Source: Methanocella paludicola SANAE (GTDB lineage: Archaea > Halobacteriota > Methanocellia > Methanocellales > Methanocellaceae). Taken from it: DNA of 64,000 nucleotides. The notes beneath the pieces were generated by a model. The model was given only the letters and a program-made list of their open reading frames with translations. It was not told the origin of the DNA and did not search any database. The stretch is taken from positions 496,001 through 560,000 of the forward strand of contig NC_013665.1 in NCBI RefSeq assembly GCF_000011005.1, written 5' to 3'. Below, in pieces: positions 47,538 to 54,010 of the stretch; the stretch's first letter is position 1, and the number at the start of each line of letters is the position of its first letter. The position numbers and the translations under genes are program-made.

Positions 47538-48473
47538 TTATGCATCATCCAGGCGCTCTCCCGTCAGGTTCAGGAAAACGTCCTCCAGCGTGGGCTTTTT
47601 CACGTAGAGCTCCTGGCACAAATGGCCATCGCCACCCAGTACCGATATAGCCTTTGCCATGGCTGCCATGCCGTCGCCATAGGCTAGTCTCACCGTGACA
47701 TCGTTGCCCGATACGAGGCTTCCGGGCAGCGCCTCCCTTAGCCTTTCGATGGCTCCCGTGCTACATCCCCTGACGACCAGCGTGTTCCCGCCGCCATACT
47801 TGTTTATCAGGTCTTCGGGCGTCCCATGTGTAACGATAGAGCCCCTGTTCAGGACGCATATCCTATCGGCAAGCTGGTGTGCCTCGTCCATGTAGTGCGT
47901 CGTGAGGAGGACGGTCTTGCCTCGCGCCTTCAGGCCTTTTATCATGTCCCAAACGTCCCGTCGCGCTTTCGGGTCGAGGCCGGTCGTGGGCTCGTCTAAA
48001 AAGACTACCTCCGGGTCGTTGATTAGTGCGATGGCGATGCCCACGCGCTGCTTCTGGCCTCCGGAAAGGTGCTTGAATAACGCGTTACGCTTATCCCTCA
48101 GCCCCATCTCATCGATGATCCGGTCGACATTCCCATACTTCCGGTACATCTGCGCAAAATAGTCGATGTTCTCGTAAACGGTCAAAAGGTCGAACCCTTT
48201 AAATCCCTGTGGAAGCGCGCCGATCTTCTCCTTGATACCGGTATAGTCCTTCGTCAATGCATATAGCTGCTCCGAGTCCAGGACGTAGGCAAAGCCACTT
48301 GTGGGGCGCTCGACGAACTCGAGGATTTTGATGATGGTGGTCTTTCCGGCGCCGTTGGGGCCTAACAAGGCGAAGATCTCTCCCCGGCGCACCTTGAACG
48401 AAACGTTACAGACCGCCGGATTGTTCGGGTAATTCTTAACGAGCCCGGATACCCCTATCACGACATCGTCCAT
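47538..48473 (-). CDS. ABC transporter ATPase (DrrA type)
   Basis: The 311-residue ATPase has Walker A GPNGAGKTT, signature LSGGQKQR and Walker B VVFLDEPTTGLD, with the DrrA-like C-terminus ending KKPTLEDVFLNLTGE. It is closely related to the ABC half of the two methyltransferase fusions upstream but lacks the methyltransferase. It is the last gene of the export operon. Confidence 0.92.
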   Translation of the reverse strand: MDDVVIGVSGLVKNYPNNPAVCNVSFKVRRGEIFALLGPNGAGKTTIIKILEFVERPTSGFAYVLDSEQLYALTKDYTGIKEKIGALPQGFKGFDLLTVYENIDYFAQMYRKYGNVDRIIDEMGLRDKRNALFKHLSGGQKQRVGIAIALINDPEVVFLDEPTTGLDPKARRDVWDMIKGLKARGKTVLLTTHYMDEAHQLADRICVLNRGSIVTHGTPEDLINKYGGGNTLVVRGCSTGAIERLREALPGSLVSGNDVTVRLAYGDGMAAMAKAISVLGGDGHLCQELYVKKPTLEDVFLNLTGERLDDA

Positions 48474-48498
48474 TTTTCGGCCACCATCTCTATAATAG

Positions 48499-48978
48499 CT
48501 AATCGATGAGTAATAACGCCATTGGCTCGGGCGATTTAGCCTCCGGCGGAAATTTCACTGCCATGCCGGCGTTTTTCGCCGTCTTCATCACGTTGACGCC
48601 GACCGCTTCGGCCGCGATACGGGCCATCGCCGGGCTCAGGCACATGCCCTTTTCGACGTTGCATTTTTCGTACAGGTGGCAGGAGCCGCCGACAAAGGCC
48701 GTGGCGAAGGTATAGCCGCGGCCGAACGCGACTTTCTCGAGCTCCAGCATGATCGCCAAGGTCGTCCGGTAATACTCCCTGTACTGTGTCCGCAACGCAG
48801 CCAGCCGCTCTTCGGCGGTACCCGGGGTTTCGGGCATTGCCGGCGGCTTATGCTTTAGGACCATTGCGAAGCCATACTCCTTCAGGGCCTGCCTGAACTC
48901 ATCGGGCGTCGGCACGAACGGAGGGCACTTCAGGTTTGTACCGTACGACGGGCAGCCGACCCGGCACTTGAGGCGCAC
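48499..48978 (-). CDS. DUF2284 metal-binding protein, start uncertain
   Basis: From GTG 48978 the protein has 159 residues with the DUF2284 Cys pattern CRVGCPSYGTNLKCPP and CHLYEKCNVEKGMC, a likely Fe-S or metal site. In the same frame the conserved N-terminus continues upstream (QEDFKFLEEAALALGVTGAR, then VIPAEQVVVEDRV) to about 49083, but no ATG, GTG or TTG occurs before a stop at 49102-49104. Either a non-standard start is used, or the N-terminus is lost. It is coupled to the permease gene that ends at 49079. Confidence 0.7.
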   Translation of the reverse strand: MRLKCRVGCPSYGTNLKCPPFVPTPDEFRQALKEYGFAMVLKHKPPAMPETPGTAEERLAALRTQYREYYRTTLAIMLELEKVAFGRGYTFATAFVGGSCHLYEKCNVEKGMCLSPAMARIAAEAVGVNVMKTAKNAGMAVKFPPEAKSPEPMALLLID

Positions 48979-52315: not shown

Positions 52316-52318
52316 TTA

Positions 52319-54010
52319 TTATCCTCCTTCGATCAGCTTTTCGCCGGTCAGGTTCAGGAACACGTCCTCGAGCGTTGGCTTCTTCACGTAGATCTCCCGG
52401 CAGGCGAAGCCGCCGGACTTGATGACCTCGACGGCCTTCGCGATGCTTGCCATGCCATCGTCCTCCTGCAGCTTTGCCATTACGTTATTGCCGTCGATCG
52501 TGCTCCCGGGTATGGCCTTCGCCAGCGGCTCCAGGGCGTCGGGGCTGCATTCTCTGATGACCAGGGTGTTGCCTCCGCCATACCGGTTGATGAGGTCCTC
52601 GGGCGAGCCCTCGGCGACGATGCTGCCCTTGTGGATGACACAGACCCGGTCGGCGAGCTGGTATGCCTCGTCCATGTAATGGGTAGTCAAAAAGATGGTC
52701 TTACCCTTCGCCTTGAGCCTCTTGATGGCCTCCCACACGTCCCTCCTGGACCGGGGGTCCAGGCCGGTCGTCGGCTCGTCGAGGAAGACGATATCAGGGT
52801 CGTTGATGAGCGCGATGGCGATGCCCACCCGCTGCTTCAGGCCGCCGGAGAGGTCCTTGAACAGGGCGTTCCGCTTCTCCCTCAGCCCTAACTCATCGAT
52901 GAGCCGGTCGGCGTCCACGTGCTTCGAGTACATCCGGGCGAAGTAGTCGATGTTCTCGTAGACCGTGAGCAGCTCGAACGAGTTAAAGCCCTGCGGAAGT
53001 ACTCCGATCTTTTCCTTTAAGTCCGCAAAATTCCTGTCCTGGGCCATGAATAGATTGCCCACCGGGGCCCCGATGAGCACATCGCTTCCCAGGATGCTAA
53101 TAAAGCCGCGCGTCGGGGATTTGAGCAGCTCGAGGACCTCCACGATGGTGGTCTTGCCGGCGCCGTTGGGGCCGAGCAGGGCGAAGACCTCGCCCTTCCG
53201 GACCGTGAACGAGACGCCGAAGACGGCGATGAATTTACCATAGTACTTACTGAGGTCCTTTACTACGATCACGGCCTCCGCTCTTTCATAGTTCTTGAGC
53301 ATCCCGGCCGACGATGCCGCACGATCCGAAGTCTTGACGGCCCGGACGTAGTCCATGGCGAGATTCGAGGCACTCGTGTCGTCCCCGAGGATCTCCAGGG
53401 ACGTGATCTGGAAGCCGGCCGCGGGGAGCATCTGGCGCAGGTCGTTATCCGATATGCCCCTGGCGCTTTTCTCCATGGCCTCGAACTCTTCCTTAGTAAA
53501 ATAATCGGCGGCGAACCCGTAATTGGAGGAGAACCGTATCATCGTCCCGGGCATGTCTGCGACGTCGATGTAGCTTCCATCCGGGTTTGCGATGATGATC
53601 ACGCCGCCCGGCTTCAATATCCGGTTCGCCTCGCACAGGGCCTGCATCGGATTATCCGTGACGTTGATAACGAGCGCCATGAACGCGGCGTCGAACGCCC
53701 TATCGGCGAACGATGTCCTCATGCAGTCCTCCTTTTGGATGGTCACGTTTATAATGCCCTTCATCCCCTCCCGTGCCCGGGCCAGCATCTCGTCGCTGAG
53801 GTCCGTGGCGACGACGCTGTCGGCCACCTCCGCAAGGGTCCTCGTAAAATATCCCGTACCGCAGCCGAACTCCGCGACCCGGCCCAGGCCCTTCTCACGC
53901 TCCAGCCTTTCCCGCACCTGGGGCCTGAGCCTATCGCCGATCGTCCTGTCGACGATGGAATCGTATTTTGCTGATATGATATTCCAGTACTTTTCATTGT
54001 CCACAGACAT
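52319..54010 (-). CDS. Methyltransferase-ABC ATPase fusion protein (first copy)
   Basis: The 563-residue protein has the same order: methyltransferase (residues 1-235; VAEFGCGTGYF, MALVINVTDNP, ILKPGGVIIIA) then ABC ATPase (about 245-563; GPNGAGKTT, LSGGLKQR, VFLDEPTTGLD). Parts of the ABC half are identical at DNA level to the second copy (52347-52447 and 52721-52885), while the methyltransferase halves differ. It is the first gene of the operon, preceded by about 320 bases with repeats. Confidence 0.85.
   Translation of the reverse strand: MSVDNEKYWNIISAKYDSIVDRTIGDRLRPQVRERLEREKGLGRVAEFGCGTGYFTRTLAEVADSVVATDLSDEMLARAREGMKGIINVTIQKEDCMRTSFADRAFDAAFMALVINVTDNPMQALCEANRILKPGGVIIIANPDGSYIDVADMPGTMIRFSSNYGFAADYFTKEEFEAMEKSARGISDNDLRQMLPAAGFQITSLEILGDDTSASNLAMDYVRAVKTSDRAASSAGMLKNYERAEAVIVVKDLSKYYGKFIAVFGVSFTVRKGEVFALLGPNGAGKTTIVEVLELLKSPTRGFISILGSDVLIGAPVGNLFMAQDRNFADLKEKIGVLPQGFNSFELLTVYENIDYFARMYSKHVDADRLIDELGLREKRNALFKDLSGGLKQRVGIAIALINDPDIVFLDEPTTGLDPRSRRDVWEAIKRLKAKGKTIFLTTHYMDEAYQLADRVCVIHKGSIVAEGSPEDLINRYGGGNTLVIRECSPDALEPLAKAIPGSTIDGNNVMAKLQEDDGMASIAKAVEVIKSGGFACREIYVKKPTLEDVFLNLTGEKLIEGG

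Follow-up and report, generated by a model that had tools for sequence, protein, structure and literature searches.

The window, a 64,000-nucleotide stretch of the Methanocella paludicola SANAE genome (complete, one contig, 2,957,635 bp), carries on its reverse strand an operon in which two tandem genes each encode a SAM methyltransferase joined to a DrrA-type ABC ATPase (Table 1). Downstream of the genes for these fusion proteins of 563 and 572 residues, here called MT-ABC1 and MT-ABC2, the operon encodes two ABC-2 permeases, a DUF2284 protein, a third ATPase with no methyltransferase (ABC3), and a TetR-family regulator. Intergenic gaps range from 1 to about 31 bp, except for an overlap at DUF2284. 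MT-ABC2 and both permeases are each preceded by a GGAGG-type ribosome site. The original prediction described the two fusions exactly as we find them in reading frames and Pfam domains, and the same holds for the permeases, DUF2284 protein, and third ATPase listed after them. The genes that it assigned to the operon stand, but its limits had to be extended: the TetR gene belongs to the operon as well, and DUF2284 coding sequence reaches to about position 49083.

Table 1. Features of the fusion operon, in window coordinates
Feature	Position	Strand	Basis or remark
MT-ABC1 ORF, 563 aa	52319-54010	(-)	Methyltransferase + DrrA-type ATPase
MT-ABC1 methyltransferase domain, aa 1-225	53336-54010	(-)	Methyltransf_11 1.1e-21; AF2 pLDDT 90.7; SAM motifs invariant
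MT-ABC1 linker, aa 226-247, disordered core 232-242	53270-53335	(-)	pLDDT <50 at 232-242; stop-free
MT-ABC1 DrrA-type ATPase + C-terminal R-domain-like part, aa 248-563	52319-53269	(-)	ABC_tran 2.6e-29; TIGR01188 245.6 bits; Foldseek 4yer, ABCA, NosF
Gene-conversion tract 1, MT-ABC1 ATPase	52736-52978	(-)	MT-ABC2 partner about 51017-51259; identical DNA blocks 89 + 75 bp
Gene-conversion tract 2, MT-ABC1 ATPase	52346-52456	(-)	MT-ABC2 partner about 50627-50737; identical DNA block 101 bp
MT-ABC2 ORF, 572 aa	50597-52315	(-)	Methyltransferase + DrrA-type ATPase
MT-ABC2 methyltransferase domain, aa 1-231	51623-52315	(-)	Methyltransf_11 9.3e-26
MT-ABC2 ATPase domain, aa 253-572	50597-51559	(-)	ABC_tran 2.1e-28; TIGR01188 237.4 bits
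ABC-2 permease 1, without ectodomain	49837-50595	(-)	ABC2_membrane 3.5e-23; alignment to relatives
ABC-2 permease 2, without ectodomain	49079-49825	(-)	ABC2_membrane 1e-23; alignment to relatives
DUF2284 Cys-rich protein	48499-49083	(-)	DUF2284 1.6e-39 for extended frame; first GTG at 48978
ABC3, ATPase-only paralogue	47538-48473	(-)	ABC_tran 3.3e-30; 65% identical to MT-ABC1 ATPase
TetR-family regulator, last operon gene	46760-47506	(-)	TetR_N 2.2e-17; 41-43% identity to TetRs of related operons

A tandem palindrome, TAGTTATCAAATAACTA, with an imperfect copy (46676-46710), is located in the interval that separates TetR from an FMN_red/mcrD gene pair. It is the sole such site in the genome at one mismatch or fewer and is a candidate operator. 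A search for an operator common to the three related TetR operons described below found no 11-mer shared with the region upstream of MT-ABC1. In the neighboring pair (45403-46650), an FMN_red-type flavoprotein gene precedes mcrD, which encodes methyl-coenzyme M reductase operon protein D; this mcrD gene is separated from the mcr-like genes located near 8-13 kb of the window. On the other side of the operon, a divergent gene (54333-55217) encodes an ArsR helix-turn-helix fused to several Cys-rich motifs of zinc-ribbon/LIM-like type.

Exporter and Methyltransferase Domains

All three ATPases match the Pfam ABC_tran profile (PF00005) at 100-106 bits against a threshold of 25 and contain the GPNGAGKTT (Walker A), LPQG (Q-loop), LSGG, VFLDEP (Walker B), and TTH (H-loop) motifs. 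The structures nearest to them are those of TM_1403, NosF, and the lipid exporters ABCA1/3/4/7; the C-terminal part of the ATPases is also present in TM_1403, ABCA, and NosF. They belong at the family level to the DrrA/ABCA/NosF type, within the DrrA/NodI class. The labels "export operon" and "DrrA type" given previously hold at that level: TIGR01188 (DrrA) is the top NCBIfam match of each ATPase with full-length coverage, at 245.6, 237.4, and 234.9 bits, under its curated cutoff of 312.45. The NodI model (TIGR01288) gave 183-191 bits against a cutoff of 424.

Both permeases match ABC2_membrane (PF01061; 82.7 and 84.4 bits vs. 26.9), and their best curated family is DrrB (TIGR01247), at 71.8 and 75.3 bits against 223.05. 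Neither has the ectodomain of about 125 residues found by alignment in all four related permeases. Permease 1 groups with permease A of a related operon in genome G003 (90/91), and because of this pairing each ectodomain was probably lost in an event of its own, a conclusion with moderate support.

When read from its first GTG (48499-48978), the DUF2284 frame matches Pfam DUF2284 at 1e-34. It is 51% identical over 209 columns to the copy in a second related operon (genome G002), and this conservation includes the upstream part, reaching about 30 residues beyond the GTG. The conserved N-terminus (48979-49083) contains no ATG, GTG, or TTG start; a ribosome-site-like GGAGG precedes the codons GTT AAC ACG. 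The true start lies upstream of the GTG at 48978 and may be either unusual, perhaps ACG, or coupled to the permease stop.

The methyltransferase domains match Pfam Methyltransf_11 (PF08241) at 77.7 and 90.8 bits against a cutoff of 21.2. The class I SAM-site residues of the family (E47, G49, G51, G53, D70, D107, and G136) are invariant in the alignment, every one being kept in both copies, and an AlphaFold2 (AF2) model of the domain alone has the complete class I fold (pLDDT 90.7). The best NCBIfam matches are the BioC, UbiE, and CpaM models, all far under their cutoffs; UbiE/MenG (TIGR01934), for example, gave 55.3 and 71.9 bits against 158.35. The nearest solved structures are mostly natural-product or small-molecule methyltransferases (AtmM, RebM, MitM, DhpI, SpnF, and a phosphatidylethanolamine methyltransferase), at a TM of about 0.65, which is generic similarity. 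The closest free-standing methyltransferases, 41-55% identical, are encoded by solitary genes in other genera of the phylum, with no adjoining exporter.

Two Copies of the Fusion

The junction between methyltransferase and ATPase is open in both copies in the assembled sequence, bearing out the prediction that no stop separates the domains, whereas 16-28 stops occur in each ORF's two alternative forward frames. Codon-position GC shows a strong bias and retains its coding character through the linker, with both frames open throughout. AlphaFold2 models MT-ABC1 as two well-folded domains (mean pLDDT 88.9) joined by a linker disordered at residues 232-242. An internal start at the junction was sought, and no well-placed Shine-Dalgarno sequence was found; copy 1 has a GGAGG just 2 nt before GTG247, in contrast to the GGAGG sites in front of MT-ABC2 and both permeases. 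The methyltransferase halves of the two copies are 50% identical, with a dN of about 0.44 and a dS of about 1.7 (1.66, NG86, saturated). Since two old, independent frames both lack a stop, a point error in the assembly is a very unlikely origin of the fusion, which on these sequence grounds is genuine and not a sequencing error.

The dN/dS of about 0.26 for the methyltransferase halves indicates purifying selection on this domain in both copies. The linker is poorly conserved between them (14% identity) and the ATPase halves are 81% identical. Within the ATPase halves, MT-ABC1 codons about 345-425 and 517-555 are near-identical in DNA to MT-ABC2; here dS falls to 0.03 (codons 391-430) and 0.19 (codons 519-563), compared with 1.0-1.3 in the diverged ATPase segments and 1.0-1.7 overall outside the converted codons. 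Gene conversion is confined to these ATPase segments and has left the methyltransferase halves divergent. Holding the motor core alike with the methyltransferases free to differ would fit two methyltransferase specificities around one motor partner, and selection together with gene conversion maintains both copies. Trees were used to compare two independent fusion events with a single fusion that was later duplicated. In the ATPase tree, MT-ABC1 and MT-ABC2 join each other (100/98), a grouping biased by the conversion between them, followed by ABC3, G003, G002, and G039; the methyltransferase tree leaves the placement of MT1 against MT2 unresolved.

Related Operons and Distribution

Two further Methanocellaceae genomes, G002 and G003, share the operon core of TetR, ATPase, and permease, and the TetRs of the three operons share 41-43% identity, their DNA-binding regions being almost the same. 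In G003, from another genus of the family, TetR, an LCM/TIGR00027 methyltransferase (242.8 bits, cutoff 93.55), an orthologous ATPase (67% identical), and two permeases stand in a row. The methyltransferase is a separate gene directly upstream of the ATPase and of a different family from the fused domains, so that two different methyltransferase families occupy the same operon position. Also unlike the fusion operon, the G003 permeases keep their ectodomains of about 125 residues, and DUF2284 was not found on the contig bearing the operon. The G002 operon resembles ours in its orthologous TetR, ATPase (69% identical), permease, and DUF2284 protein, but has no methyltransferase and a single permease, with ectodomain. 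The more distant G039 ATPase (49-51%) has a permease as its sole partner.

Among 40 other DrrA-type loci sampled in Halobacteriota, a methyltransferase lies beside the ATPase in two, both in one genus outside the family (G105 and G130), where a methyltransferase, a MazE/AbrB-like regulator, a DrrA-type ATPase, and a permease are separate neighbors (L138:4081-6026 and L143:3080-5703). Pairing of methyltransferases with such exporters appears to be recurrent but uncommon. In another archaeon, several methyltransferase-like genes surround two ABC half-exporter-like genes (L121:74-7295).

The fusion itself was found in no other genome of its whole class (4 genomes) or among 393 sampled Halobacteriota, nor in 232 genomes of the class of G227 or 7 of the class of G039, one class-level search being an empty answer without positive control. 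A plasmid tblastn returned no record covering 80% of the fusion query; a Natronococcus plasmid match (H2) was rejected as an ordinary ATPase plus permease. A scan of 84,980 species with the peptide YENIDYF yielded 80 best loci that match the ATPase half only, at 38% identity or less; the peptide is common in Bacillota ATPases and searches outside Halobacteriota were shallow, which leaves bacterial fusions possible. Comparison with a defence library gave generic ATPase and methyltransferase resemblance (mad2, mad3) and no system. No description of the architecture was found in open-licence papers, in agreement with the original prediction, which knew of no published account. Separate methyltransferase-exporter pairs are already known, and the covalent joining is the new part.

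The rhizobial Nod-factor methyltransferase NodS and its exporter NodI/NodJ form such a pair. As here, a SAM N-methyltransferase is encoded with a DrrA/NodI-class ATPase and an ABC-2 permease; the ATPases of our operon match NodI models and MT2 matches NodS (NF041650; 41.8 bits, 9e-11, cutoff 300). However, NodS is a separate protein whereas methyltransferase and ATPase here form one chain, and all scores are far under the NodI and NodS cutoffs. The daunorubicin exporter DrrAB (TIGR01188/TIGR01247) is the best curated family for the three ATPases and two permeases; it differs in that our proteins score under its cutoffs and the operon has the N-terminal methyltransferase fusion, two permeases, three ATPases, and DUF2284. 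By analogy, the operon would operate on the lines of DrrAB or NodIJ, with a partner resembling NodS, but its proteins score under the curated cutoffs of DrrA, DrrB, NodI, NodS, UbiE, and ArsM, and it is assigned to none of these.

Possible Roles of the Operon

We tentatively favor a system under TetR control that modifies and exports a small molecule, with methyltransferases tethered to the ATPases, over the readings considered below, because a methyltransferase of an unrelated family directly precedes the orthologous ATPase in G003. Of all the observations, this adjacency argues best for a role of methylation in this exporter. The proposal is also favored by the two intact, old fusions, the mostly small-molecule enzymes among the structural matches of the methyltransferase, the neighboring genes in G105 and G130, the retention of DUF2284 beside the exporter in G002, and the restriction of gene conversion to ATPase segments. 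Against the proposal, methyltransferase adjacency is rare (the two loci of 40), the closest free-standing methyltransferases are not beside exporters, and the third ATPase has no methyltransferase, so that a pump could work without one. In such a system, a toxic or self-made small molecule accumulating in the cytoplasm would cause TetR, as a repressor, to release the operon. The two methyltransferase-ATPase proteins and two permeases would assemble as a heteromeric pump, the tethered methyltransferases would methylate the molecule beside the mouth of the pump and thereby cap a polar or reactive group, and the methylated product would then be driven out by ATP hydrolysis. The Cys-rich DUF2284 protein, predicted to bind metal, would be an accessory, perhaps binding substrate or metal. 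The methyltransferase genes beside exporter ATPases in G003 and in G105/G130 lend indirect support to the original prediction of a coupling between methylation and export, although the coupling itself is our inference from gene arrangement.

A more specific version, which we regard as doubtful, is that the pump's motor subunits carry the modifying enzyme, so that tethered methyltransferases label cargo at the mouth of a single pump, which is shared by two methyltransferase-ATPases differing in specificity. That both permeases lack the ectodomain suggests that the substrate entry route changed along with the fusion.

It is unlikely that the exporter instead moves a lipid or envelope precursor, with the tethered methyltransferases acting on a lipid or its head group in envelope biogenesis, not detoxification. 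Among solved structures, the ATPase is closest to the ABCA phospholipid transporters, and a phosphatidylethanolamine N-methyltransferase is among the structural matches, but the ABCA resemblance is common to the whole DrrA/NosF class, and the very narrow distribution and TetR gene better suit an accessory function than envelope housekeeping. We think it equally unlikely that a co-expressed methyltransferase and ATPase were joined by stop loss through operon proximity alone, carrying out separate steps with a tether of no importance. Such an origin would agree with the disordered, poorly conserved linker and with the adjacent but separate genes of G003, yet the fusion has persisted in both copies across saturated synonymous divergence.

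Two other readings are highly improbable. In one, the operon handles metalloids or metals by means of an ArsM-like methyltransferase, a metal-binding DUF2284 protein, and an exporter for the methylated species. Proteins combining a methyltransferase with DUF2284 do exist, as in NF041536, an "arsenite methyltransferase/DUF2284 domain selenoprotein" (PMC13188914) that has no transporter, and DUF2284 is present in both our operon and that of G002. However, our methyltransferases score 44.3 and 60.2 against the NF041536 cutoff of 575 and 33.7 and 41.2 bits against the arsenite methyltransferase (NF008823) cutoff of 263, general UbiE/BioC models match better, and no DUF2284 was found on the contig of the G003 operon. 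In the other, the methyltransferase domain would be a SAM/SAH sensor or scaffold gating the ATPase and not a catalyst. The modeled linker would let the domains touch, but nothing bears directly in its favor; the intact SAM site and purifying selection oppose it, as does the G003 partner, a separate protein of another methyltransferase family. An assembly or sequencing artefact joining separate genes has a negligible chance, given two diverged copies both in frame in a complete single-contig genome.

Should methylation and export prove to be physically linked on the ATPase, the operon would be a compact, testable case of modification as an export ticket. The relatives with separate genes make this hypothesis testable by comparison and, were it true, it would provide a handle on the small molecules that methanogens, here one of rice soil, make or resist.
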